From a virus, in IMG/VR virus record IMGVR_UViG_3300044797_000098, positions 124,001 through 188,000 of that record: 64,000 nt of DNA; one strand, written 5' to 3'. A program made the position numbers and the translations under genes. Below the pieces are notes generated by a model. It had not been told where the DNA came from, made no database searches, and saw nothing but the letters and a program-made list of their open reading frames with translations. Below, in pieces: positions 1,776 to 32,122 of the stretch (its first letter is position 1; each line of letters opens with the position of its first letter).

Positions 1776-4700
1776 TTGTAATACTTTCTTGTGCTATTGA
1801 AACCGTATTAGCGACGAAATATTGATTTTCTTGAGCGGTAATCGTTAATACTTGACCACCTGTACCATCGACATTAAAATATACTACGCGAACTCGTTCC
1901 ACGCCATCTACCGATTGTGCTGCTGAAATTAACATAGATGAATTTAACACTCCGCCTAATTGATTTGTATTAATTGTTGATGTAACAGCATTTTTTACAT
2001 TTTGTATAACTATTGCAGCAGAGTTTGTTGAATTAGAATTAATAACTATATTAAGTGTAGCATCTATTAGTAATTCTTTTGCTTCTTTAACCAAAACATC
2101 TGCTGTCACCGGACGAGCTCCTTCAACAGTAAATGTTGTATTTGTTATTAACGAATTATAATTATAACTAATTAATATTCTTTCATTTTGTTTTGGAGCT
2201 AAATAATCATAAAACGCAGTATATCTTGAACCGGTTGCTGGTTGTGTAAAAAATGAAACCGTGAATCGTGCTGATTGTGATGAATTAAATCCGCTTGATG
2301 CATAGAACTTATTTAAGAATGCAAACTTTTTATTAGTGTAGAGAGTACCGTTTTTTGTAAAATATACATTTTCATAATCGCCATCTGTTGCATAATAAAA
2401 TGTAATCATTAATGAATCACCGAGATTTGGCACATTATTTATATTATTAGTCGTTGATGGTAATGTGAATTGTGTATTTTGTAATAATGGATCGCTTATC
2501 ATTTCATTAGCATATAATAAATTATTACTTATCTCTGTACCAAGAACATCATATGTTGCCAATGTGCTTAATACTTGATTTCCCGTTGTAACGCTCACTT
2601 TTTTAAGACTTACAACCCTCGTGATGTATGTGTTTGACGGAATAGTTGCATTAATAGTTAGATTAAGAAATGTTACGAATGCTGACAGTGCATTTTGTGT
2701 CAATCCAGAATTGATTGCCGTAAATACAACATTGGCCACCTGTGTAACTGTTGTACCAGAAGCTGTTATAACACCTGAATTGGCTATTTGATCTGTGACG
2801 GTTATTGACAATTTTGTTGGTGACTGATGTAAGTTTTTATTTCCGAATAGAATGACAATAACTTCGTCTCCCTGAGATGCTAATGCATTTACTGGAAGAT
2901 TTAAAATATTATCTGTTGAATCTATTGTGCCAGATATAGTCCATAGGTCTTTATTATCTGCAACTCTAATAATACTAATTTGTATTGTTTGTAAATTAGC
3001 AATTGCTAACTGTATAGTTAATAAATTATTCGATGTATTTATAGATGTTATATTATAATAACCTTTGTTATTTATATTTACTGTATTTACTAATTGTATT
3101 GATTTTCCAAGTAAATCATCTATTGATGAAAAACTAAATGATATGCTTGAAAAAGTTGCTGTTGAGGAATTGGATGAAACTGATTGTATATATCCGTCTG
3201 TTCCTGATGCTATCGACAATCCAGTTGTATTATCAATTATATTAAAAGATATATTATTTTCAATAATAAAATTATGTATAGGTACGTAAAAATTATTAGT
3301 TGTAAAATTATACGCCAAGTTTTGAAAATCAGTTTTTATGATTTGATTTGTAAAAGTAAATGGCTGAAATCTTCTTATATCATCGGCAAAATATATTACT
3401 AAAACATTATCGCCAACAGATGGAGCATTAAAACCAGAAAATATTAATTGATATTGGGTTCCGGTATTTACAACGGTTCCAGGAAAATCGGTATTCCATA
3501 TTTCTTTACCAGAAACTAAATCTATAACGGATACTATTTGTGATTGTAGCAATGAAAAATCGGAAGATGGAATACTTAATGTTACATAATTTTGGCTTGA
3601 ACCATTAACTTGAATTGTTTGATTTTCTCTTTTTAATGTATTTGAATTTATATTATTTGTTGATCCTATATTTGTATTTAATACATAACCATTTCCAGAT
3701 CTACTAATCGGAAGACTAGTTATTCCGGCAGATAGTAAATCTGGTAATGCAGCCAAATACGTAACATCTAGATATACATATTGTGTTGATGCTGGTACAT
3801 TTGATACCGGAATAGTTATTTGATTAGATGTAAAACTCCCCGTCGAATTAGTAACATTAAATGAATCTTGTTGATTATAGGTTATTGATATTAAATCACC
3901 TACCACCGCCGAAGTATCTGTTGGCAATATTATTGTTGAACTATATTTTAATTGTATTCCAACAACGATACTATTATTAATAATAATTCCATCATTTTGT
4001 GCTGTATTATATATTTCTTGATTAGAATCAGTGAGCCTAATACTCTCTATAGAGTTTATTGGATTATCGATTGGTGATAGGACTACTTGAAGTCTTGTTA
4101 GAAAGTTTGCAACCGTGCCAACAACAACTGTGCCACGACTAAAACTAAAATAGTTTGCAGATATTACAACAGATACTGGATGTTTTACAGTACCAGTAAA
4201 AAGATTACTCGATGAATTTAATGAAAATAATACTCTTTCATTCCTTATAGCATTAGAAATGCCCCAATCAACGCTATCTGAAATTGGTCTTGGATTATTA
4301 TTTAAAAACTTACCATCATAATCACTATATGGATCATAACTATCAATCCAAGTATAATCAACTTGAAGTATATCACTGGAAGACGGTAATGTATTACCGC
4401 TAATCTGTATTTGCCCAGTCGTATTTGTGCTTCCTGTATTGTCTAGATTTTGATTAGTTATCGTATAGGTTTCACCCGTATTTACATTAAATACTCTTGT
4501 AACATTCGTAGCCGGAGTATGAAGTAATTGTATTATAGAGCTATCGGTGCTTGATACAATACTATTTTCACTAAGTATAGATATACTTTGTTGAACCTCT
4601 GGTATATCAATAACATCCGAATATGTTGTAGCGTCTTGTCCGTTAAATTTTGATTTAACTCTATCTTCTTGGAATAAGGATATTTTATTTGATATCCAGT

Positions 4701-17170: not shown

Positions 17171-18058
17171 CTATAATATATCATTGACTGCATTAATGAT
17201 ACTATTAAAACTATTTGCAGTCTGTAAATCGCTAAAACTCAATGGAACAGCATCAGAGTTTGATGGACCAGAATTAGCAGATCGTTGCCACGCGAGAGAA
17301 TTAGTCCGATAGCCTCGTCTTTGTGTTACCATAAATGCTATATTGTAGGTAAATAACCCAAGTTTATCAACGCTTTCATTTACTGTCATACTGGTAAAAA
17401 ACCCGCGAAACACCCAACCTGTGTAATAAAATTCTATTCCTAATGCTAATGAAGCTAATGAAGGAACATTTTGTGGTAATATATTTTGACTTGCCGGATC
17501 TAATGCCATAACCCCAAGTGATCCGCCTGTTAATGAACTATTAAATCCACCAAGGTTTCCTAATACAGAATCCACTGAACTATTTAATCCTGTTATTGAG
17601 CTATCAGAAGCCATTGTGAGCGCAATCGGGTCAAAAAGATATTGCTCTGCCCTATATATTTCATATAATACATTCAATCCTTCAACACCAGAACTACCGG
17701 TATGTCCTTGTAATGTTAATGTTGGTAATTCCTCTCCCCAATACTGTATATTGTATCCGCCCTTTGTTCTTTCTGTATTGATTACCTTTTTATATCCATA
17801 GTCTATATTTTGAGGGTTTATATACATATTAATAACACCGACTTCTGGAACGAACCAGTGTCCTATATTCCTTCGTGGCACCGCTTGTAATAATGCTGGT
17901 ACTTGGCTTGAAGGTAATCCATTTCCATCTGCACTTGATATAATAGAAGCGATAGAGCCAATTTGCTGAAGGGTCTTGCTTGCACCATTCAATGCTTGAT
18001 TTAAATTGGTAGTACCAATTACTGTATTAGTTGGTGGTGCCTGATTTAGAAATGCCAT
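17171..18058 (-). CDS. Tail/baseplate protein between tape measure and hub
   Basis: 295 aa. The first 60 residues are Ala/Ser/Gln-rich. From ~65 on there is a compact beta domain, including I-N-M-Y-I-N-P-Q-N-I-D-Y, T-K-G-G-Y-N-I-Q-Y-W-G-E-E and L-P-T-L-T-L-Q-G-H-T-G-S. This 'WGE..LP.L.L.G.TGS' pattern resembles small tail proteins at the tail tip of other large phages (T4 gp53/gp48-like positions), but I cannot fix the family. It starts on the base where the tape-measure stop ends (18058). Likely role: adapter between tube/tape measure and hub, by position. Confidence 0.62.
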   Translation of the reverse strand: MAFLNQAPPTNTVIGTTNLNQALNGASKTLQQIGSIASIISSADGNGLPSSQVPALLQAVPRRNIGHWFVPEVGVINMYINPQNIDYGYKKVINTERTKGGYNIQYWGEELPTLTLQGHTGSSGVEGLNVLYEIYRAEQYLFDPIALTMASDSSITGLNSSVDSVLGNLGGFNSSLTGGSLGVMALDPASQNILPQNVPSLASLALGIEFYYTGWVFRGFFTSMTVNESVDKLGLFTYNIAFMVTQRRGYRTNSLAWQRSANSGPSNSDAVPLSFSDLQTANSFNSIINAVNDIL

Positions 18059-20418
18059 TATTGTATTCTCCCTGGGTAAGCACCTGCAACGGTTCCATTA
18101 ATGATTTCTATACTACTTGGTACTGATTTTGTATGCACTCCAAATCCTGGTGGAGCCGTGATTTCTAATACTACTTTTTGTGGGGGATGTTGTTTCATTT
18201 CTACTTGTGTCTTTAATGCCTCTTTGTTAGTTGTAGTAACTGCTGCTGGTCTTTGTTGATTAATGCCTGTATGCAATGCTGTTTTTAGGATATTGTGTTT
18301 ATCCTCCATCTCTTTTTGCATTCTTGCTCGCTGAGTTGCTAATTCTGGGGAACTACTGGCTTCTGCAAGAGTTGGCATTCTAGCTTGTGTAGTGGCAGGA
18401 CCTGTATATGCCCCTGTTATTGTTTCCGTTGCAACTTTGAGGACATTTTGTGATGGTCTATCTGGTTGTCTCAATGTTCTTCTTGCTGGTGGAGTTATGG
18501 TATTATCCATTACTTTTTGTTCAGGAGTTTCTGATACCATTCCTAATGCACCTTTAAAATCATGTATAGTATCAACTACACCGCTAGCTAATTCTTTAAA
18601 ACCTTCCTTTGCTCCATTACTAGTACCAACAACAGCGTCAATCATTTGTGACATCATCTGTCTTGCTGATAGAACTTCTTCTTTTTGGTAGGCTTCTTTA
18701 TTTGTTGCAGTTTTTTCACCTTTGGTATAAATCTCCCCAAATGCTTCGTTTTTTTTCATTGTTTCGGTTATAGCAGCTTTATTGCCTCCTGTGGTGCCAA
18801 ATAATTGTTTCATTGTAAGACCGGCTGTAATTTCAGCTGCTATTGCCATTCGTTGTGTTTGGATAGCAATTTGTTTTAATTCAGTATTATTTCTTTCTTG
18901 AATTTTTTCACCTCGTGTTGCAACCTCATTTACTGCATTTTGACCAGTTTTTAATTCTTTGGTAACGGCTCCGAAATCTCTTTTGCCTAATGCTTCTAAT
19001 AATTTTGTAGCCTGATCATCGGAAGCTCCCGCCCCAATACCAAAAGCTCCGCTCTTTAAAAGAGATCGTTGTCTCATAAATTGAGCTGCTGCTTCGGGGC
19101 TTGATGCTGCTTCTTGCTGCGTATATATTCTACCGCCGAATTGTTGTCGAAGGCTTCTTTCTGCCATTTGAGCTACTTGATCTAATTTACCTTGACGCAA
19201 CAACTGATCAATCTGAAACGATCCTTGTAATCCACCTGGACCACCAGATCGTAATGATAGAAATGCTTTAGCTCCAACTGTCATTTCACTTATTGATTTA
19301 ACCATACCATCAACAATATCCATCGAAGCTTTACCAGTTAATCCTGTTTCTCGTAATGCGTCAGTGTATCTTGCAAGAACTTTTGCTGCACCGTCAGAAT
19401 TATCTCCAACAAATTTAAATCTTTCAGCAATACCACTCATAACTTGATCTACATCTTTAAATTGTAAACCTAATGTATTAGCAACACTAGATATATCTGC
19501 TAAGAACTCTGCACCTTTCTGTGCTTGATCCGTTACTCGTCCAACTGAGTTTCCAAGATTGTCATATGCATCAGCTAATGCTTTGGTTACAACCGTTTCA
19601 CTTTGTCCTGTACCGGTCATTAGTTTCATTGTATTAAGCAATACATTTGTTGATCTATTAGCTCCATCACCAGAACTAATTGTCTGATCTAGATATCCAG
19701 GAAGTTGTTTCAATGCATTCGAAAATTGCATTGTTACTGGAATGCCTAATCCTGTTGCACTTGCAATAGCGCCTAATTGATTCGTATAGTTTTTTGTCTT
19801 TGCTGCTAAATCAACTAATCTTCCTTCTGAACCCTCAAATAAATCATTCATACTTCCACTGGCAGACATTAATGATATATATGAGTTTTCTAAAACCTCT
19901 GCTTGTCCTGCATTAGTAATAAATGCACTACCCATGCCCTCTATAATTTTTGCCGTACGCTCCATACCAAGATCACCAAGTATTTTGGTTAGACCGGAGA
20001 TATCACCAGACAACACGTTTATTGCAGCGCCACCTTTATCTGTTCCTTCGAACATCTTATCCCATTTCATCACAGCGCCCATTTTAGAAAAATCTACCAA
20101 TAATTTATCGACGCTTTTTGATACACTACCAATAGAATTACTACCAGTCATACCAACATCACTTAAATTATCACCAAAACTTTTAGCATGATCAATTAGT
20201 TTTGAAAAACCATCTTTGAGTCCGTTAGTAATTTTGTGAAACTCTTGAAATGAGTTACTAGCATCGCCACCAAGGGAGTTTAGTATGACCTTGCCTAATT
20301 CAGGCATTTTTACAATAAGATTCTCTATATTAGATAGAAATCCACCGGACGAACCAGCAAAACTGTCCATTGTTGTTTGTGCCCCCGTTATGCCAGCATC
20401 TGTTGGTGTATCAACCAT
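18058..20418 (-). CDS. Tail tape measure protein
   Basis: 786 aa, following the chaperone pair and preceding the hub genes, where the tape measure belongs. It is Gly/Ala/Ser-rich and mostly helical, with repeated amphipathic stretches such as F-Q-E-F-H-K-I-T-N-G-L-K-D-G-F-S-K-L-I and a charged, Gln-rich middle. The C-terminal ~150 residues are Pro/Thr/Gln-rich and probably disordered. Tape measures line the tube and set tail length at about 0.15 nm per residue; 786 aa would give a tail near 115-120 nm. No lytic transglycosylase or peptidase motif is seen. It begins 6 bases after the stop of the frameshift product. Confidence 0.77.
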   Translation of the reverse strand: MVDTPTDAGITGAQTTMDSFAGSSGGFLSNIENLIVKMPELGKVILNSLGGDASNSFQEFHKITNGLKDGFSKLIDHAKSFGDNLSDVGMTGSNSIGSVSKSVDKLLVDFSKMGAVMKWDKMFEGTDKGGAAINVLSGDISGLTKILGDLGMERTAKIIEGMGSAFITNAGQAEVLENSYISLMSASGSMNDLFEGSEGRLVDLAAKTKNYTNQLGAIASATGLGIPVTMQFSNALKQLPGYLDQTISSGDGANRSTNVLLNTMKLMTGTGQSETVVTKALADAYDNLGNSVGRVTDQAQKGAEFLADISSVANTLGLQFKDVDQVMSGIAERFKFVGDNSDGAAKVLARYTDALRETGLTGKASMDIVDGMVKSISEMTVGAKAFLSLRSGGPGGLQGSFQIDQLLRQGKLDQVAQMAERSLRQQFGGRIYTQQEAASSPEAAAQFMRQRSLLKSGAFGIGAGASDDQATKLLEALGKRDFGAVTKELKTGQNAVNEVATRGEKIQERNNTELKQIAIQTQRMAIAAEITAGLTMKQLFGTTGGNKAAITETMKKNEAFGEIYTKGEKTATNKEAYQKEEVLSARQMMSQMIDAVVGTSNGAKEGFKELASGVVDTIHDFKGALGMVSETPEQKVMDNTITPPARRTLRQPDRPSQNVLKVATETITGAYTGPATTQARMPTLAEASSSPELATQRARMQKEMEDKHNILKTALHTGINQQRPAAVTTTNKEALKTQVEMKQHPPQKVVLEITAPPGFGVHTKSVPSSIEIINGTVAGAYPGRIQ

Positions 20419-20424
20419 CTAAAA

Positions 20425-20778
20425 TTATCCTTTTATTTTTCTCTTGCGTTTTCTCGTTTTTTTATTTTTTTCTTCATCGAGCTTTTTATTCATTTCCATA
20501 ATTTTTCTTGATGTCTCTTCGAACTCTTCATCACTAGATGTGATCTCATTCGATCCTATCCCAAGCATTTTTTGAACTAATTCGGGATTAGTGAATGAAC
20601 CGATTAAATATCCTTGATTTTCCAGTAATTTATTTTCATCGTTGTAATCCTCTATCCAATTATAGAACATCCAAGCTCTCATAATTGGATCCATATTCTC
20701 TAATTCAGGATCATCCGGGAAACAGCCACGCATTTTACATAAGAACCAAATAAATCTATGGTCTGATTCCCTGACTAT
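20425..20778 (-). CDS. Tail assembly chaperone, C-terminal part made by -1 frameshift
   Basis: This frame has no good independent start: the first ATG (20733) lacks any Shine-Dalgarno sequence. Read in the -1 frame from the slippery run at the end of the 220-aa gene it is open and continues with I-V-R-E-S-D-H-R-F-I-W-F-L-C-K-M-R-G, then P-D-D-P-E-L-E-N-M-D-P-I-M-R-A-W-M-F-Y-N-W. That is the typical look of the 'T' part of lambda-type gpG-gpT fusions. The full fusion (21437 to 20425) is about 337 aa. The C-terminus is Lys/Arg-rich. Known role of the family: the short and fused forms together coat and recruit the tape measure before tube polymerisation. Confidence 0.82.
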   Translation of the reverse strand: MVRESDHRFIWFLCKMRGCFPDDPELENMDPIMRAWMFYNWIEDYNDENKLLENQGYLIGSFTNPELVQKMLGIGSNEITSSDEEFEETSRKIMEMNKKLDEEKNKKTRKRKRKIKG

Positions 20779-21437
20779 TTTTTTAAATCCGCTGATACCT
20801 CCTCAACTGCTTTTGGTGTTGTCATTCCATATTTGGTTCGAGCTTCCTCTTTCATTGCAGCAAGCTCATCCCATAATCGTCCAACTATAACTTCTTCTAA
20901 TGAATCTATCAATGCAAGTTTTGATTCATCTGTATTATCACCGAGAACCATATTTATATCTTCCCCGTCTATTTTGTAGATGGAACGAATTAATTGTTGC
21001 TTTCTTGATTCTAATGCAGCTTCATAATCATTTTTTACATTTTCTAATGTAGCCATACCGGCTTCACGAGATTCTTGCGATTTTAGCGTTCGTAAAGAAA
21101 ATACTGTATCACCAATTTGTACATCACGTGTTAACCTACCTATACCTGATAGCAACTCTATCCTGCGTTTGCCATGATCGGTAATTCTTGCTCCGTGTTT
21201 CAAAACGTCATTTTTTTCTTCACGAGCAGCTTTCATTCTTGCTTCAAATTCTGCTGGCGAGATTTTTTGTTGAACCGGTTGTTGAGCAGCTTGTTGTCTA
21301 AGAACAGCTGGATTTACAATTTCGTCGTCACCATCTTCTGGTAATCCAACATTGAATTCACGTAAAGGTTGTTGTTGCGGTTGTGGTTTTGGTTGAGTTA
21401 ATTTTTTGTTAAAATTTGGTGAATTAAAATCTGGCAT
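20775..21437 (-). CDS. Tail assembly chaperone, short form (G-like)
   Basis: 220 aa, between the tail tube and tape-measure genes. Residues 1-65 are Pro/Gln-rich and probably disordered. A helical domain follows, with T-D-H-G-K-R-R-I-E-L-L and a Q-I-G-D-T-V-F-S-L-R-T-L-K-S strand region. The gene ends GAT TTA AAA AAA TAG, so the stop directly follows a slippery run; an AGGAGG sequence lies 10 bases upstream of TTTAAAA. Most ribosomes should stop here and give the short form; a fraction should shift -1 into the next frame. A ribosome binding site (GGAGAAAG) precedes the ATG. The neighbours and the frameshift make the chaperone assignment firm even though the sequence family is not recognised directly. 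Confidence 0.82.
   Translation of the reverse strand: MPDFNSPNFNKKLTQPKPQPQQQPLREFNVGLPEDGDDEIVNPAVLRQQAAQQPVQQKISPAEFEARMKAAREEKNDVLKHGARITDHGKRRIELLSGIGRLTRDVQIGDTVFSLRTLKSQESREAGMATLENVKNDYEAALESRKQQLIRSIYKIDGEDINMVLGDNTDESKLALIDSLEEVIVGRLWDELAAMKEEARTKYGMTTPKAVEEVSADLKK
20778..20803 (-). promoter_or_regulatory. Programmed -1 ribosomal frameshift signal
   Basis: On the minus strand: AGGAGG (20803-20798), a 10-base spacer, then TTTAAAA AAA (20787-20778) immediately followed by TAG. Both TTTAAAA and AAAAAAA fit the X XXY YYZ slippery rule in the correct frame (T TTA AAA or A AAA AAA). The internal Shine-Dalgarno at 10-13 bases upstream matches the stimulator spacing known from E. coli dnaX. 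The downstream frame is shifted by exactly -1 and encodes the chaperone extension. I see no strong downstream stem-loop. Confidence 0.85.
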
Positions 21438-21541: not shown

Positions 21542-22168
21542 TTAGACGTTTGAAAAATAATCAGTAATTAAACCTGGCGCATCCATTGAACCTAGACGCT
21601 GACCTGAGTCAGCAGCTTGCTCAATTGAATTGATTTGTAGTATGCTTGAACCGTATAGACCACCTGTTGCAGCAATACCGCCATTCAATGTTGAATATAT
21701 ACCTTCTGCCTCAAATGTCATTTTTTCAGTAATTATCCACATATCTGCACGAAAATCAACGCTGATATTTTTTATCCATACATTTTTTATTGTTGTAACG
21801 ATTGCATTATTACCATCACCATTTGATATATCATACACGTCAATATCGAACGGAATACGTTGCGCGTGTGCATGAATAAATCCACGTCGAAATGCTTCTG
21901 TTATTCTGGCTCGATCAAATCTTATTCTATCACAAGAACCGGTGATATTTGTGCTTTTTGTTGGAGCTGAATCTATGTGACCATCTGTTCCAACTTCATC
22001 AACCATTGTTATTGTTCGATCTTCTTGGAAACTTATAGTTTGGATTGCTCCAACAGCAGTTGCACCAACACGAATGACTATATTCGTTGATAGCTGTGTT
22101 AATGTAGCATCATATCCAGTGACTGGTTGCTCTGTTATGCTTCCTGTATTTGGCGCAAGATTCGTCAT
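21542..22168 (-). CDS. Tail tube protein
   Basis: 208 aa, directly downstream of the sheath. It has the beta-sandwich profile of myovirus tubes: N-I-V-I-R-V-G-A-T-A-V-G-A-I-Q-T-I-S, then R-T-I-T-M-V-D-E-V-G-T-D-G, an S-G-S-C-like turn (T-G-S-C-D-R-I-R), and a closing M-T-F-E-A-E-G-I-Y strand. This matches the T4 gp19/XkdM-type tube fold by pattern. Tube rings stack on the hub and carry DNA. The start has an upstream GGAGATAACG. A terminator lies downstream, consistent with high expression of sheath and tube together. Confidence 0.77.
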   Translation of the reverse strand: MTNLAPNTGSITEQPVTGYDATLTQLSTNIVIRVGATAVGAIQTISFQEDRTITMVDEVGTDGHIDSAPTKSTNITGSCDRIRFDRARITEAFRRGFIHAHAQRIPFDIDVYDISNGDGNNAIVTTIKNVWIKNISVDFRADMWIITEKMTFEAEGIYSTLNGGIAATGGLYGSSILQINSIEQAADSGQRLGSMDAPGLITDYFSNV

Positions 22169-22182
22169 TCGTTATCTCCTAA

Positions 22183-24966
22183 TTATGCTATTATTCCAAC
22201 ACTAACTGTTATATAAATCCAATCGATTGGATAAGTTGGCTGCACCTGAACCGTTATATCCCATTGACGAGGCTCAACACTATCACGCACAACGGTTGGT
22301 TCCGTGTAGCTAGTAATCAATCCTTGTGCTTGGAATCCTCGTAGCAATGCGATTGTTCGTGTAAGCAGTGTTGCTTGTGTGTCTGTATTTTCTGGTGTTC
22401 CAATATATTCTTTGAATCCGCTTCTCATTGCTTTTGCGAGACGATCTCTAATGAATACGATTGAAATCTCTTGTTCTTCTGGTGCTCCGCTTTGTGAGGT
22501 TGTTATACCCCACAATACCGCACCACCGCCAGCAACTGGTTGTAACGGAGCTACTCCGGCATCAGCCAAGCTAGACAATACCGTTGAACTTACCATTCTA
22601 TTTGATTGAATAGTAAATCCGCTCAGATTTTTATTAGTTAGTGGTTGAGCTATATTTGCACTACCAGATGTGTAACCAGCAGCAGCTGCTGCGATGTAGA
22701 AACCATCAATTATTTGATTACTTCCGCCAACTTGAACAACAATCTGATCTGGCCAGAAATACACAGCTCTATATGTATTACCATATGCAGCTGCAACTGA
22801 GTAATTGGCCAAATCTTCGGTATTACCAGACAATACATCCTGTATTGTTGCACCTTGAATGCCTTCGAGTACTCCAATGTTTTCGACAGCAGCTAACGAA
22901 GCTCCGGTTAGATTGCTTGGAGTTAATCCGTTTATTGCTCCTATAAACAATACGCGCTCTTTTCTATTCAATGGATTGCTCATCGCAATACAATGATTTA
23001 GTGAGTTTTCAAAAATAACCGATATTGTTTGTAATGGAAGCGGGACTAGTATATCTAGTTCCTGTGCTTCCAATGTGGCAAGAGCCGTTTCCCAACCAGC
23101 ATCGAAGAATGTTGCATCCTGCACATCTACGATTGTTACTCGTAATGAGTTATTATTGGGAACAATGTTATGATTTAGAACTAAATAATCACTAGTTTGT
23201 GATGGATCCAATACTTCGTATTTAAGATTATGCTCACTAATAAATGATTTGGCAATAGTTAGTGTATTGGAACCAGAATTGTATGATGTAATATCATATA
23301 TACCGATATTTGAAGCATCAGCAGATGCTGTTATTTTCAATTTTAGCCCAAGAGCTATTACATTGAACGGATTGAAATTAACTGAAATGCTGCTCAATGT
23401 ACCAGTTGCAGTGTTTGGAATTGCAATCAATGCTCCATCAGAACCGGTGCTACCGGCAACAACTTCTCCGAAAATTGGATCAACCAATTCAAAAGTTGTA
23501 GTTGGATCATTAATAAAATCAGCAAATGGCGGAGTTGAACTAGCAAGTATTTGAAGCTTACCGCCAACAACACCAACTATCGAGAATATACCAACATTTG
23601 TATTATTTACCGCATCAATAATTGAAAGCTCTTTACCAACATATGATGATGTGAATGTTATAGATGAGCTAAATAATGCATTTATTTGTGTAGTTAAATC
23701 TCGATTGATATAACCATCTTGACCAAAATTAAGTGTAGCAACTGTTTGCGTAACTGAATATGAGAATGAGTTTCCTGCTGGAGGAAGAGCGTTGTCAAAA
23801 ACGAACTCTGATATAGTTGGCTGACCGGCCTCTCCAAGAGTAAAAAACTCAAATTTATTTGCTAATAGTTGTTTTTCAACTCCCGTTGCTGGATTTGTCA
23901 CGAAGATATCGATATTTGAATTTGGATCTGGCGATACTCCAAGAGGAAGCGGAATTACGAAATCATTAACGTTTGTTGATGTAGCAGGAAAACTAGTTTC
24001 TAATACGTAAGAAATACGTCGTGGAAGAGGAGGAGCAGCCTGTAAACACATAATACCAGGAGGCGTATTAGCAAATGCTAACTGACAACCGAGAGATAAT
24101 GTATTGGTTAGGCTTGGAAGACCGTGTTTGGTATTTAGTTGTTGAACTGATGTAAAAAATGTTGGGCTATTTATATCAGCAACAGCGATATATGTGGCAG
24201 TTAGGCTATCATTTTTGGTTAGCACACCGCTTGATACTTGAATAGTAAAATAATCACCAGGTCGGAAGGGTGATATCGTTGTTGGACCATTCATAGTTTC
24301 TGATATTGAAAACATCAATATACTATTTGATACAATTTGATTATTTGCAACCCATACTGTTGGATTACCATTTGCATCTAAAACATTGCCAGATACGGAA
24401 CCAAATGCAACGAATTGTGCAGTTCCAGCAATAGGTTGATTTAGATTGTTTCGTTGAACTGAAACGCATTTAATAGTCCAAGTTTCGTTTGGGGCATTTA
24501 AATCAACGAGTGAAAGATTTTGAACGGTACCAACACCAACGTTTGTAGGACCAGTTAAATAAAATGTTCCACCTTGATCAACAAAATGTGCCTGTTGAAG
24601 TTCAATTTGACCATTTGAAATATCTATTCTATAATCATAAGTAAAAGGAAATGGATTTTGATCTATTGATTGCTCTAATCCTTGAAGCAGGACTCCGTTT
24701 TTATATAACTGTTCTCGTTTTGAGATGATAGGAGCATATTGAAGAAGAAAATGTCTTCCGTCACTACCGTTAGTTGATGTGTAATAACCATCTAACCCAT
24801 CATTACCGCCACCAACAGCAGAAGATACGATGATTTCTTGACGAGCACCCTCACCGATTATGCAGGTAATTCTAGCACCACCAGGCACTGATGCGCCAGT
24901 ACTTTGTGTTATGACGTTGGTGATTACACCAGGAAGAACGTTATTTGCAGACGGTATGTTTGCCAT
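22183..24966 (-). CDS. Tail sheath protein (enlarged)
   Basis: 927 aa. The N-terminus has the usual sheath opening (P-G-V-I-T-N-V-I-T-Q, a strand that becomes the inter-subunit extended arm). The last ~140 residues have the conserved sheath C-terminal domain: I-S-I-V-F-I-R-D-R-L-A-K-A-M-R, then helices with L-L-T-R-T-I-A-L-L-R-G-F, and a final arm ending W-I-Y-I-T-V-S-V. T4 gp18 is 659 aa; the surplus lies in the middle (about residues 420-630), where two copies of a small beta domain are inserted, probably on the outer surface. Sheath contraction drives the tube into the host. The ATG is preceded by AAGGATTCTTCA. Confidence 0.8.
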   Translation of the reverse strand: MANIPSANNVLPGVITNVITQSTGASVPGGARITCIIGEGARQEIIVSSAVGGGNDGLDGYYTSTNGSDGRHFLLQYAPIISKREQLYKNGVLLQGLEQSIDQNPFPFTYDYRIDISNGQIELQQAHFVDQGGTFYLTGPTNVGVGTVQNLSLVDLNAPNETWTIKCVSVQRNNLNQPIAGTAQFVAFGSVSGNVLDANGNPTVWVANNQIVSNSILMFSISETMNGPTTISPFRPGDYFTIQVSSGVLTKNDSLTATYIAVADINSPTFFTSVQQLNTKHGLPSLTNTLSLGCQLAFANTPPGIMCLQAAPPLPRRISYVLETSFPATSTNVNDFVIPLPLGVSPDPNSNIDIFVTNPATGVEKQLLANKFEFFTLGEAGQPTISEFVFDNALPPAGNSFSYSVTQTVATLNFGQDGYINRDLTTQINALFSSSITFTSSYVGKELSIIDAVNNTNVGIFSIVGVVGGKLQILASSTPPFADFINDPTTTFELVDPIFGEVVAGSTGSDGALIAIPNTATGTLSSISVNFNPFNVIALGLKLKITASADASNIGIYDITSYNSGSNTLTIAKSFISEHNLKYEVLDPSQTSDYLVLNHNIVPNNNSLRVTIVDVQDATFFDAGWETALATLEAQELDILVPLPLQTISVIFENSLNHCIAMSNPLNRKERVLFIGAINGLTPSNLTGASLAAVENIGVLEGIQGATIQDVLSGNTEDLANYSVAAAYGNTYRAVYFWPDQIVVQVGGSNQIIDGFYIAAAAAGYTSGSANIAQPLTNKNLSGFTIQSNRMVSSTVLSSLADAGVAPLQPVAGGGAVLWGITTSQSGAPEEQEISIVFIRDRLAKAMRSGFKEYIGTPENTDTQATLLTRTIALLRGFQAQGLITSYTEPTVVRDSVEPRQWDITVQVQPTYPIDWIYITVSVGIIA

Positions 24967-26104: not shown

Positions 26105-27202
26105 TTACCACCTGTATTTAATTCTAATTGGTGAAAAATATACACCTGTTGGAATTAGACCGGAATATGTTGATAACTTAAATACATATCCAATTGATAT
26201 AGTTAGTGATGATTGCAATGTATTAAAATAATATTGTAAATTATTTTGTATTGCAGAATTAATTACTAAATAATAAGTACCTGCTTGTATTGCGGTTAAT
26301 CCAGGACCAGTTAATACTGTTTGTTGGGTATTAGCAACACCAAATTGTGGATTTAACCCAGCACATTGTGTTTGCGCATCTAACATAGAACTATAGCCCG
26401 TAACATCATAATCAGTAAAACCACTGGTAATTGTAATAGTAATTGTAGTTGTATTTTGATCGATAGGATCTCCAGTATTAGTAGCATATATACCCTGTTT
26501 TATTTCTAAAATCTGAGTATCTATTGGAATGACTTCTGATATATTAAAAACCCTAAAATAACCATGCTGATTAGCATCTACTAAAGTTAAGGTAGCATAT
26601 GTAGATGGTCCGGATGCAGCATTAGCATATGCGCTCCCAAATGTTGAATTATCACTAATCCCATCATCATTGTATGGACCAACTGAGGTACTACTCCATA
26701 ATTTTTCGCCAACCAAAATCGGCAACATAGAATAAGCTGTTTGATTTTTATTATTATTATAAGTCGAGCCAACGCTCAATCCAGTAGGAGTTGGATTTAC
26801 TCCTTTAACGAGATTTTCATCAGTACCATTATCTAAAGTTGTGCCATCGACATGGTATCCATCAAAAACATTATCGGTAATTATTTGATCATCAGTAGAA
26901 TTACAAACTATATATGCATATATAGTTGTAGTATCTCTAATAAATATGTTATTTTTTACAATACTAGAGGTACCACCTGATAAAACTAAATTGGCACTAC
27001 TACTGCCAGCTCCAAACTGTGCTGGTGCTGCCATACCAGAAAAATAATTATTTGTAATACTTGTATCTGATGTCGTTCCCACACAATTAAAATATGAGTA
27101 AGTAATTGATGTACTCGCAGGATTACCATCTGGTGTATAAGTACCATAATCGAATGAATTACCATCTATAATTATATTATTAATAGGAGTACTGAAAACC
27201 AT
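26105..27202 (-). CDS. Beta-helix fibre protein (distal part)
   Basis: 365 aa. The first ~130 residues are parallel beta-helix rungs (N-N-I-I-I-D-G-N-S-F, D-T-S-I-T-N-N-Y-F-S-G, S-S-I-V-K-N-N-I-F), with no separate N-terminal attachment domain. The C-terminal ~200 residues form a different beta-rich domain, possibly a receptor-binding or trimerisation tip. The ATG directly follows the stop of the 1639-aa fibre gene in the same frame, and the rungs continue those at the end of that protein. An AGGA six bases before the ATG supports separate translation. See the 1639-aa gene for the idea of a split fibre. Confidence 0.7.
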   Translation of the reverse strand: MVFSTPINNIIIDGNSFDYGTYTPDGNPASTSITYSYFNCVGTTSDTSITNNYFSGMAAPAQFGAGSSSANLVLSGGTSSIVKNNIFIRDTTTIYAYIVCNSTDDQIITDNVFDGYHVDGTTLDNGTDENLVKGVNPTPTGLSVGSTYNNNKNQTAYSMLPILVGEKLWSSTSVGPYNDDGISDNSTFGSAYANAASGPSTYATLTLVDANQHGYFRVFNISEVIPIDTQILEIKQGIYATNTGDPIDQNTTTITITITSGFTDYDVTGYSSMLDAQTQCAGLNPQFGVANTQQTVLTGPGLTAIQAGTYYLVINSAIQNNLQYYFNTLQSSLTISIGYVFKLSTYSGLIPTGVYFSPIRIKYRW

Positions 27203-30200
27203 TTATGTTCCTATTCTTGTATCTGTGATTAATCCAACTGGCTGTATATTTACTAATCCGCCATCAAAAAATGTACAAAAGTTAGTATCATATGCAGTAA
27301 ACTTATTATTTTTTATAATGACTGGGGCGTATCCAGTAGTATCTGTTGCTGGCACCCTATTAGCTATATACATAAATGCACAAGTATTATCTACAATTTT
27401 TAATGCTCCAGTGAATATACCTGAGTTATTTGGGAACGATCCTGCTGGTAAATCTAGAGTAGAATTATATGCAATACCGCTTGCATATCCAGTGAATATA
27501 TATTTACAAGTATTATTAGATATTGTTAGATTGCTCATCTTGTCAGCTTGAAATGTAGTATTTGGTAAAATTGAATTTGGCAAATCTTGTTTTGTCGTTA
27601 TATTAATAGCTCCACAGCTATTGTTGGAAATGAATGTATTTGTTGTGCAAATTGCATCATACACAACAAGACCGACATTTGTTGGAGCAATTTCTATAAG
27701 TTGATTTTTATTACAATAGTTATTAGTTATCAGACAGTTATTCAATCTTGTTCCAGTTGTTGTTGTAGGCGCCACGCTTGGACCGGTTATTGCAATTACA
27801 GCGAACTTATCATCTGCATTTGCTGCTGTTGATACGAATTTATTATTCGTTATTTTTATACCTTCCGCGAAACAAAGAGAATTAAGATATATCATTGATA
27901 TAAAAGGGAATCTATTTAAACTTGGTGATGTAAATATACAACTATCAATGGTGATATTTTCTAAACCGCTCGTCGTAATATTCGAGAATATACACGCCTT
28001 GGCCGGACTTGCAGGATTAGTTATAGTAAAATTAGAATCACTTGTTGCGTCATATGTATAATTAATATTACAAGTAGAGAACGTACTATTATTTGCAAGC
28101 GTAAATCCAACTGCACAAGGAACTGTGATATTACAATTTGTAAATGCAGTATTATTTGATAGTATAAAACTTGTACCACTAGCAGATCCAACGGTTATGG
28201 TAGAATTATTGAATGCTGTGTTGGTTCCTATTGATACACCTGATACCGTTGTTATAGTACAATTATTTATTACTGCATTAGAACCGAAAGAACTTAATGC
28301 ACCAAATGGACCTATGGTGCTTCCAGTAAATGCACAATTAGATCCGAAAATCATTGATGTATTTGATAGTGTTACGGTACAATTTGTGAATATTGTGGCA
28401 GTTCCAAATGTTATAGAGCTTTCTGGGAAAGTAATTGTACAATTTGTGAAAGATATATTATTACCAAATGATACTGTATTAGATGGAAAATTAATCGTAC
28501 AATTTATAAATGATATATTATTTCCAACTAATAATGTTGAGGTGGATGCATTGATTATTATATTAGAAAAAGTAATATTATTTACTAATGAAACGTTGGA
28601 TGTTCCAAAATTTAATATGCCATCATTACCATTGAAAACCACTTTTGTAGAATATCCGATTGATATTGAAGGTGATGTAAATGTTACCTCTCCTCTAATA
28701 TCTACATTAACTCCGTTGGGATTATTTGTAGTATTAGTATATGATATAAAGTTTGTAAATTGAGATATCCAAGAATTTAAAGAATCAATTGTCCTGAACT
28801 GACCCTCCGAACTTAATATGAACGAGTCGGTTATTCCAGAATAACCATTAGAAACAAATCTTCGTGCATCAACAATGGATAGCGAAGAAATTGAACCACT
28901 AGTGACGGTCGCTGTAACGATATATAATGGAGCAACATCCGTATAATTTGATACCAAATTACTAAAATAAGTTCCACGTATAGGATATGTTTGTCCTGAT
29001 GCCGGATTTGTTACATAAAATATTCTATTTTGATCCAGAGACCCATACGTTCCAACGAGTGACGGACTATAATCTGTTGATGCGATTAATTCTATTTCAG
29101 ATTTATTATTAGCACATATGAACCAAGTTATTGTATTTACCGTTGTAGTGAATGCTGGATATAAAGACTCTATCAAAGTTGGAATGGTAATATTAGTTTC
29201 ATTTATAGAAATTATATTACCATTTATTAAAGCTATTCCGCCATTGAAAGATATTATATTTGAGGACAAGGATTCATTATCAAAACCATTTACTACACCA
29301 TTTTGATTTAATAATCTTGTTGGAGCATTAATATAATTAAGTGCGGAACTCGTAAATTGCTCTTCACTAACGTTTCCAAACTCTCGCTCATCTTTTAGAT
29401 ATGATACCTGTTTCGTAATGTCATTAATTTGACAGCTCGAAACAAGCATAATTTCTTCATCTAATTCTAATGTTAAAAATAACTGGATATCTAATGTTTT
29501 ATTAGAAAAACTGCTAACTGATAGATTTAAATCTATAATAAAATCTATATAATCTATATTGGTTTCATCATAAAATCTAACTATCTCTCCTTTTTTACCA
29601 GTGGTGAGAGGCCCTAAATTAGTTGTAGTTAAAGATACAGGATTCCATCTTGCTAAATATCCTGTATATACACCGCTATTTTGATCATAATTATTAATTA
29701 TTAATCTAATTTCTTTATCATTATTTGTTGTAGTATAGCCTCGTAATTTTGGAGAAACTCTATATAAATTAATATTAGATATATCTAATCCAGTATTTAT
29801 AAATCTGGCTCGTTCGTGCATAAATGTATGGCCATTACCATCGACATAAATCTCAAAAAACCTCTTGAATGGACCAACAGTGGTTGCATCAAAAACATTT
29901 TCTGCATCAAAAGATACTGAGTCATCTGAAAAATAAACGAATACTGGTATATTATTTGACGTTGCTGCTGGAGAAGTACCGGCTGCATGAACACCATCAT
30001 ATACGGTTATATTTGTGTAAGCAGCTGGCGTTGAACAATTTTGAAATGAAATGGCCTTAATAGTAAATCTGCCGTAATCTCTAAAATTAAATCTAGAATC
30101 TGATGTTGGAAAAGCTGGTTGTATAACGATAGTTTTGCCAACAGCTAATCCAGAATTAGATAGATCTAGATTTATTTGATATACTACCTCTACCCTATTT

Positions 30201-32122
30201 GGTAAAACATTAGTGTATGGTGGAGGAAGAATAGTCGCTGGCCAATAACCGTCTCCAAATGAATCTTGAATATTATTCAACAGATTAGGATCAGATCTTA
30301 AACTATCACGCTCTACACCATTCGTATAAAAAAAGTTTCTTTTTAGTGGATAGAATAGGAGTGTGGGATTAAACATCGCTGCTGCAACAGTGGCATATGC
30401 TGTTGTTGGAGGAGGACTAGATATGTTGGCTCCGCCTAACCCTATTCCAAGAGGATCTATGGAATTAAAGTTATCAACTACGTTGTTGGGAAATGATGAT
30501 AGTGATGAACTAGTATAATTTCCATTTGTATCTACAGTACCGCTCACGATACTAAAACTTGCATTATTATATGGATCCGCAAGCATTATTCCGAACTGTC
30601 CAGAATACTCAAAAGCTATAAATCTATAATTAAATCCTGGTACTCTAAATGCTATATTTATATTATTTACTACATCATCTAATGTATATTGTCCGGGTGT
30701 TGCTCCTTGATTCCCGGTTACATCTATTGCCGGTAATGGAATTATAGTTGAGGTGTTACCTGTTGGTAACAAATATAAATATAAATTATAATGACTTGAA
30801 TCAAACTTAGATGAATTAAAACCGTTGCCAAGTGCAGCAGCAGCTCGTGGGCTTGCTATTATCAAACTCTCATAATTACCAGTATAATTTGGGGAACGAG
30901 CAGAAGCTAATACGCCGTATTTTCCTCTATGAAAAGTTGATTTATCTATTCGCGCTAATGCATTAACATTAGAGATTGGATTTTTTCCATTTATTCTAAC
31001 AGCATAGTTTCTTACATTTCCTATAACATTTGATTTTGTTGAATCAATAATAAATTGATATGATATACCAGTCCCATAATTAATCGTTAGTAGATCACCT
31101 GGTTGTACCTGAGCAAATTGTGCATCAAAATTAAAAGTACTTAATTGCGTCGCAGTTGGACTAAATAAAATAACATCATCACCATTAATAAAACTATCAA
31201 CTGGTGACGAAGCCATTGGGCCTGGCGGGACATTTAGAGAATATGCTATTGCTGGTGTTGGCGGAACAAGTGGCTCCCCATAACCATCTGCCAAAAAACT
31301 AGATGCTCTTGATGTTCTAGAAATACCGTTAGCATATAGATTTTGTACACGACTACCAAGTAATAATAAACTAGAATTATCAAAATATTCTATTATACTT
31401 TGTATATCTTCATTTGATTGTGGTATAGTGGTAAAGTTGCTTGAAATTACACTAATACCACTTGCCATATGTGCGTAATTTATTGGTGGTACAGTCCCAC
31501 CAGATGTTGGCGTTACATTTGTACTACCATCCAATTTTTCATGAACAACCAAATCATTACTAATATCTTCGATTAATAAATCTGCATTGGTCGTATTTCT
31601 ATTTATTACATTGGTACCGGATGATGGTAAAACAGTTGGATTAGTTTTTACGAATGGTGTAGTCTGATCAACACGAATAGCTGAAAGAAAGTGATTGTAA
31701 TTTGTTCCATCAATATGTGGTTCTAATTTTACACCAGTTAAACTTAAGAAACCATTTAATACATCTATTGAGTTCTGTAATGTCAAAATTAATGTATATA
31801 GCGATGATGTTGAATATACTAAACTTAGTTTTGATTCTTGTATTGCTGCGGTTGGAGATATTTGCGCATCCGTTATTGGCAATGTGACCAGGCCAATACC
31901 AACTAATGCTGATGGCATAATTGTTCCATCAGGATTTAATGATACAGATAGACGCTGTGCTATTGAGCCAGTAGAGCCTTGTGCATTAATACCAATATTT
32001 GATTCAACTGCAAACATTGCTGAGCGTAGAGCATTAATAGCATCACCACCAATACTGGTAATGTTATCATCAACCTGTGGCAATTCAGCATTAGAATCTA
32101 TTTGAAAAGGAAAATTACTCAC
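27203..32122 (-). CDS. Very large tail spike/fibre protein with beta-helix repeats
   Basis: 1639 aa. The N-terminal ~120 residues have helical and coiled-coil character (I-N-A-L-R-S-A-M-F-A-V-E-S-N-I-G), typical of virion attachment regions. A long beta-rich body follows. Residues ~1170-1350 are about nine tandem rungs of about 20 residues built on N-x-x-F-x-N-C-x-I (for example N-I-S-F-T-N-C-T-I-T-F-P), a parallel beta-helix as in pectate-lyase-like tail spikes; further rungs reach the C-terminus. Such spikes bind or cut surface polysaccharide; I see no definite catalytic residues. The gene ends in TAA followed at once by ATG of a second beta-helix gene in the same frame. Confidence 0.75.
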   Translation of the reverse strand: MSNFPFQIDSNAELPQVDDNITSIGGDAINALRSAMFAVESNIGINAQGSTGSIAQRLSVSLNPDGTIMPSALVGIGLVTLPITDAQISPTAAIQESKLSLVYSTSSLYTLILTLQNSIDVLNGFLSLTGVKLEPHIDGTNYNHFLSAIRVDQTTPFVKTNPTVLPSSGTNVINRNTTNADLLIEDISNDLVVHEKLDGSTNVTPTSGGTVPPINYAHMASGISVISSNFTTIPQSNEDIQSIIEYFDNSSLLLLGSRVQNLYANGISRTSRASSFLADGYGEPLVPPTPAIAYSLNVPPGPMASSPVDSFINGDDVILFSPTATQLSTFNFDAQFAQVQPGDLLTINYGTGISYQFIIDSTKSNVIGNVRNYAVRINGKNPISNVNALARIDKSTFHRGKYGVLASARSPNYTGNYESLIIASPRAAAALGNGFNSSKFDSSHYNLYLYLLPTGNTSTIIPLPAIDVTGNQGATPGQYTLDDVVNNINIAFRVPGFNYRFIAFEYSGQFGIMLADPYNNASFSIVSGTVDTNGNYTSSSLSSFPNNVVDNFNSIDPLGIGLGGANISSPPPTTAYATVAAAMFNPTLLFYPLKRNFFYTNGVERDSLRSDPNLLNNIQDSFGDGYWPATILPPPYTNVLPNRVEVVYQINLDLSNSGLAVGKTIVIQPAFPTSDSRFNFRDYGRFTIKAISFQNCSTPAAYTNITVYDGVHAAGTSPAATSNNIPVFVYFSDDSVSFDAENVFDATTVGPFKRFFEIYVDGNGHTFMHERARFINTGLDISNINLYRVSPKLRGYTTTNNDKEIRLIINNYDQNSGVYTGYLARWNPVSLTTTNLGPLTTGKKGEIVRFYDETNIDYIDFIIDLNLSVSSFSNKTLDIQLFLTLELDEEIMLVSSCQINDITKQVSYLKDEREFGNVSEEQFTSSALNYINAPTRLLNQNGVVNGFDNESLSSNIISFNGGIALINGNIISINETNITIPTLIESLYPAFTTTVNTITWFICANNKSEIELIASTDYSPSLVGTYGSLDQNRIFYVTNPASGQTYPIRGTYFSNLVSNYTDVAPLYIVTATVTSGSISSLSIVDARRFVSNGYSGITDSFILSSEGQFRTIDSLNSWISQFTNFISYTNTTNNPNGVNVDIRGEVTFTSPSISIGYSTKVVFNGNDGILNFGTSNVSLVNNITFSNIIINASTSTLLVGNNISFINCTINFPSNTVSFGNNISFTNCTITFPESSITFGTATIFTNCTVTLSNTSMIFGSNCAFTGSTIGPFGALSSFGSNAVINNCTITTVSGVSIGTNTAFNNSTITVGSASGTSFILSNNTAFTNCNITVPCAVGFTLANNSTFSTCNINYTYDATSDSNFTITNPASPAKACIFSNITTSGLENITIDSCIFTSPSLNRFPFISMIYLNSLCFAEGIKITNNKFVSTAANADDKFAVIAITGPSVAPTTTTGTRLNNCLITNNYCNKNQLIEIAPTNVGLVVYDAICTTNTFISNNSCGAINITTKQDLPNSILPNTTFQADKMSNLTISNNTCKYIFTGYASGIAYNSTLDLPAGSFPNNSGIFTGALKIVDNTCAFMYIANRVPATDTTGYAPVIIKNNKFTAYDTNFCTFFDGGLVNIQPVGLITDTRIGT
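28080..28610 (-). repeat. Degenerate ~60-base tandem repeats encoding beta-helix rungs
   Basis: About nine in-frame units of about 57-69 bases in the 1639-aa gene, each giving N-x-x-F-x-N-C-x-I/V plus a turn. The repeat is also visible as recurring 'gtacaatttgtgaa'-type plus-strand words, which makes the opposite strand open as well; that open frame is a shadow of the repeat. Confidence 0.7.

Follow-up and report, generated by a model that had tools for sequence, protein, structure and literature searches.

In a very large uncultured phage, we have identified two overlapping reading frames that very probably represent a tail assembly chaperone pair of the lambda G/GT type, the fusion form of which would be produced by a Shine-Dalgarno (SD)-stimulated -1 ribosomal frameshift at an A_AAA_AAA heptamer. 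The stretch of DNA analysed here (64,000 nucleotides; hereafter called the window) belongs to a virus record of 406,470 bases (406 kb), and the minus strand carries genes in the order of sheath, tube, chaperone pair, and tape measure, with the following features:

22183..24966, minus strand: tail sheath protein (matches the tail sheath family phrog_23 at E 6.5e-11 and passes the cut-off of PF17482)
21542..22168, minus strand: putative tail tube protein (phrog_985 virion structural protein, E 1.2e-5; follows the sheath)
20775..21437, minus strand: ORF1 (220 aa, from the ORF listing), predicted gpG-like tail assembly chaperone read in the 0 frame
20798..20803, minus strand: AGGAGG, proposed internal SD-like stimulator, 13 nt upstream of the shift heptamer
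20778..20784, minus strand: predicted A_AAA_AAA shift heptamer, 0-frame TTA AAA AAA, invariant in 74/74 loci
20775..20777, minus strand: 0-frame stop TAG, abutting the heptamer
20741..20771, minus strand: candidate 3' hairpin starting 6 nt past the heptamer, at the folding-energy minimum
20425..20778, minus strand: extension in the -1 frame (117 codons plus the TAA stop), its coding sequence being conserved across 74 loci
18058..20418, minus strand: tape measure protein (match to PF20155 TMP_3 at E 2.1e-8, which does not reach the curated cut-off)

The tube role of 21542-22168 is putative and taken from the gene order. Both ORF1 and the tape measure gene have an initiation signal of their own, namely an SD sequence (AGGAG) and a ribosome binding site (AAGGA), respectively, ahead of the ATG.

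The 3' end of ORF1 reads GAG GAG GTA TCA GCG GAT TTA AAA AAA TAG; namely, AGGAGG (20803-20798) is followed on the minus strand by a 13-nt spacer (TATCAGCGGATTT), AAAAAAA (20784-20778), and TAG (20777-20775). The spacer is thus 10 nt when counted from AGGAGG to TTTAAAA and 13 nt when counted to the start of A7. Beginning immediately past a stop at 20803-20805, the -1 frame stays open down to TAA at 20425 and contains ...KKIVRESDHRFIWFLCKM...; from the heptamer, it reads ATA GTC AGG GAA TCA GAC CAT ... over 117 codons, and fusion with ORF1 is predicted to give a protein of 337 aa with the junction ...DLKK-IVRESDHRF.... The first ATG in this frame is at 20733 and has no SD sequence. These readings agree with the first-pass annotation of the window, in which the coordinates, the -1 frame, the 10-base spacer (to TTTAAAA), and an early ATG without a ribosome binding site had been noted. 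Furthermore, the in-phase A_AAA_AAA occurs four times in the 18,671 codons of the larger minus-strand ORFs of the window, and of the four, only the present one is at an ORF end; this rarity makes a chance origin unlikely even before homologues are considered.

Searches with single sequences as queries gave seven other contigs that carry ORF1, the extension, or both, and an alignment of the extension as a query gave 45 loci. With an alignment starting past the signal (A3), 105 relatives were then confirmed and 80 of them retained. The loci of both alignment searches were pooled with the window and, upon removal of identical neighbourhoods, comprised 74 distinct loci, most of which came from the query excluding the signal. 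A scan of genome contigs confirmed no relatives. In all of the 74 loci, TAAAAAAA is found at a constant distance from the extension, and the A run is exactly seven, never longer, in a constant phase 8 nt ahead of the conserved extension. The base 3' of A7 is T in 73 loci and G in one. The codon ahead of the two lysines is TTA in 29, CTA in 20, ATA in 16, and GTA in nine loci; the residue thus varies among Leu, Val, and Ile, and the third base is A throughout. Also, the lysine codons at the site are AAA in 148/148 cases as compared with 75% in the background. Slippage at T_TTA_AAA (TTTAAAA), the heptamer proposed in the first-pass annotation, would be feasible in just 13/74 loci and was ruled out. 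Given the conserved xTA with a changing residue and the rarity of T_TTA_AAA, the conserved heptamer is A_AAA_AAA, three bases away from the one originally assigned.

An additional scan with distant members added two loci: L136, which conforms to the above pattern, and L133, which does not. The slip site is hence kept in at least 75 related loci from many metagenomes. L133 (IMGVR_UViG_3300025889_014603, approximately 2975-3000) is the sole relative without A7; it reads CTG AAC AAA AGT AGT TAA, retains GGAGG, and encodes the extension in what is the +1 frame with respect to ORF1. This could reflect either an error of assembly or a change to +1 frameshifting at AAA_A.

A homopolymer is a classic site of frame errors, and the change of frame might accordingly be ascribed to a mutation or a sequencing error in a broken or misassembled gene. 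The same arrangement nevertheless recurs across many metagenomes, in at least 75 loci, both frames are conserved at the protein level, and the identity of the extension to that in the window goes down to 32%; the probability of such an artefact is therefore negligible.

As to the upstream stimulator, we numbered codons in the upstream direction relative to the final lysine codon of ORF1, by which GGAGG falls on codons -9 and -8, and the expected number of G-ending codons was calculated for the residues found at each position from the codon use within these genes. Among the 74 loci, G-ending codons were found 45 times at codon -9 (17 expected) and 56 times at codon -8 (19 expected). Smaller excesses were observed at codon -10 (18 versus 9) and codon -7 (17 versus 7.5), and codons -5 and -11 to -16 were near the expectation. 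In a thinned set of 32 representatives less than 72% identical to each other, Glu at codon -8 was encoded by GAG in 20/25 cases (p 1e-7), as compared with 5/20 for the control Glu at codon -5. Predicted pairing with the 16S rRNA tail gave one clear peak, in 9-nt segments that begin between 22 and 18 nt upstream of A7, with means of -6.8 to -7.9 kcal/mol versus -0.4 kcal/mol elsewhere. As judged from codon usage, AGGAGG is under synonymous selection, which together with the pairing peak lends support to the SD stimulator postulated in the first-pass annotation. The SD is weak or absent in a minority of the loci (e.g., L080, L107, L118, and L064) and would thus be accessory rather than an absolute requirement. 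The spacing of 13 nt in the window is within the range of 9-14 nt published for SD stimulators of -1 frameshifting (review by Atkins and colleagues, PMC5009743).

An identical fusion protein would result if RNA polymerase added one A within A7, fusing the frames in some of the mRNAs; the conserved element is indeed a homopolymer, and this is the route of some IS elements (PMC5009743). Transcriptional slippage in bacteria is, however, described on runs of nine (PMC5009743), whereas the run here is exactly seven and in the A_AAA_AAA phase in 74/74 loci; furthermore, a translated SD selected at the ribosomal spacing would have no role in the slippage of RNA polymerase. We thus consider the transcriptional route improbable.

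The 0-frame stop codon abuts the heptamer in 58/74 loci (35 TAA and 23 TAG) and is located one codon further in the remaining 16. Regarding the second frame, no ATG, GTG, or TTG was found between the upstream stop and the conserved EPDHRF in 73/74 loci, the exception being L094, and many loci have no start codon at all in the first 20 codons of the -1 frame. Homologues with a good start for the second frame and no slippery run, which the first-pass annotation had named as evidence against frameshifting, were not found among these relatives; the odd contig L133 does lack the run.

Gene callers would give ATG 20733 as a start, and an SD located close to the end of a gene may act in re-initiation (PMC5009743); the second ORF could then be a separate gene starting by itself at ATG 20733 or a non-standard codon, with AGGAGG for translational coupling. 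ATG 20733 is, however, not conserved and is 12 codons into the region where the extension is most conserved; no start precedes this region in 73/74 loci. No start codon is available in the -1 frame 5-10 nt past AGGAGG in the window, and the invariant AAA AAA and xTA would be left unexplained. Separate initiation, like gene decay, is thus contradicted by the conservation, and we regard it as highly improbable.

In contrast to those alternatives, translational -1 slippage can explain the phase, the exact length of the run, the missing second start, and the selection on the translated SD. The -1 frameshift read in the first-pass annotation is thereby supported by comparative evidence, namely the constant phase of A7 in 74/74 loci and no second start in 73/74. 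Most ribosomes reading ORF1 would terminate at TAG and release the 220-aa chaperone. In a minority, the translated AGGAGG would pair with the anti-SD end of 16S rRNA and hold the ribosome while the two AAA codons are decoded; the pair of tRNA-Lys would then slip back by one base, TAG would be read within ATA, and translation would run on for 117 codons, yielding the fusion of 337 aa. On the precedent of lambda, the expected role of the short form is to coat the tape measure protein and that of the extension is to bring in tube subunits, at a set ratio. We infer the slippage itself, its efficiency, the pausing role of the SD, and the function in assembly; the efficiency, the ratio, and the assembly role are drawn from lambda (PMC5009743).

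Possible stimulation by a downstream structure was also considered. The mean folding energy of 40-nt segments is minimal directly past the heptamer (-7.4 kcal/mol versus about -2 to -6 kcal/mol elsewhere), and a control with shuffled synonymous codons gave a mean z of -0.73, with 29/74 loci below -1 and the window itself at -0.2. Two alternative hairpins compete in this region. The fold pairing 9-16 with 28-35 shows little covariation beyond shuffles; that pairing 7-14 with 21-28 has 31 changes on both sides as compared with 20 in shuffles, but two positions pair poorly and the sequences are related. The consensus fold is weak and neither hairpin is convincingly conserved; a 3' hairpin stimulator is possible.

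No PHROG or Pfam family matched ORF1, and no significant match to either collection was obtained with the extension of the window. Also, tblastn with ORF1 as a query found nothing among named phages, and Bacillus phage G was reached only by using a divergent relative of the extension as a query. In an AlphaFold model based on 70 aligned sequences, ORF1 has a confident core (pLDDT 80.7), and the best named viral match in Foldseek was gp181 of Bacillus phage G (E 6.7e-6, TM 0.76 by target), with gp182 and several named tail assembly chaperones also matching. The top match in PDB was the tail assembly chaperone of HK97 (2ob9) with a probability of 0.97 and a weak E of 0.036. The extension model best matched gp182 of phage G in a fold search, and hhalign of the extension against that of gp182 gave a probability of 96 and E of 3e-9. 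Based on the position between the putative tube and the TMP_3-like tape measure gene, the predicted fold, and the homology to phage G, the identity as a tail assembly chaperone is supported, as the first-pass annotation had proposed together with the location between tube and tape measure. The chaperone-like nature it had ascribed to the extension is borne out by the homology to gp182, but no curated family matches the window's own sequence. Separately, 20 of 34 extension sequences matched phrog_1316 (best E 2.7e-5), labelled as "RNA polymerase beta subunit"; from the synteny, this label may be wrong for this extension family.

The gp181/gp182 pair of phage G (NC_023719) is likewise ahead of the tape measure and syntenic, with a homologous extension and a matching ORF1 fold; the two are annotated as tail assembly chaperones, and gp182 is already a joined CDS. 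The junction in phage G, GAA TTA AAA AAC TAG, has an A-run and then an abutting TAG as in the window, but the heptamer is A AAA AAC, ORF1 is only 115 aa, the upstream AAAGGA is weaker, and sequence identity is very low. The G/GT pair of lambda, and those of HK97 and P2, are also located between the tube and the tape measure, and their -1 shift takes place close to where the first ORF ends; the predicted shift site of the window is placed likewise, with an overlapping frame lacking a start of its own (73/74 loci). The heptamer of lambda G/GT differs from A_AAA_AAA. No SD stimulator is described for lambda in the part of the Atkins review consulted (PMC5009743), whereas one is proposed for the window. 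The distance from the shift site to the 0-frame stop is 0-3 nt in the clade of the window, as compared with the average of 26-36 nt in the phage sets used by PRFect (PMC10885494). Describing the adjacent stop as unusual, as in the first-pass annotation, was fair, but the phage G homologue has it too.

With E. coli dnaX and IS3-family elements, the window shares an A-rich heptamer and an SD 9-14 nt upstream (PMC5009743), the SD of the window being under selection and weak in a minority of relatives. The dnaX signal differs in its A_AAA_AAG heptamer, which is A_AAA_AAA in 74/74 of our loci, and in its strong, defined 3' stem-loop, gene, and product logic. In E. coli, which may not be the host of the phage, A_AAA_AAA shifts less efficiently than A_AAA_AAG (PMC5009743). 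Searches of the open-access literature turned up nothing specific on such a signal in jumbo phages. The present signal is thus a well-supported new case, by sequence comparison, of the known G/GT frameshift and not a new mechanism; its distinguishing marks across the clade are the dnaX-type SD and the stop at, or one codon past, the predicted shift site.

At this locus, gene callers list two genes and miss the fusion. With the A7 signature, the chaperone and the tail module become annotatable in a large group of uncultured phages that have almost no named relatives and that include many very large ones. The clade also offers at least 75 natural variants, whose slip site and stop are nearly fixed while the SD strength and the hairpin vary; these would be useful for asking how phages tune the chaperone ratio. 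A more speculative and rather unlikely proposal is that the SD-stimulated A_AAA_AAA shift has become fixed in a whole clade of very large phages, together with a stop that abuts the site or follows it by one codon. Termination at the waiting stop (TAA or TAG) would then compete with slippage, and the chaperone ratio would depend upon the activity of release factor 1 and the host anti-SD.

Regarding the identity of the ORF1 stop, TAG is enriched (23/74 as compared with 37/353 stops of other long ORFs) and TGA is absent (0/74), both of which could be explained by codon choice in the -1 frame. Elsewhere on the minus strand of the window, a repeat-rich ORF of 1639 aa (27203-32122) and an ORF of 365 aa (26105-27202) are in one frame with a single TAA between them; the junction within 26105-32122 reads GGA ACA TAA ATG, representing either abutting genes or stop readthrough.
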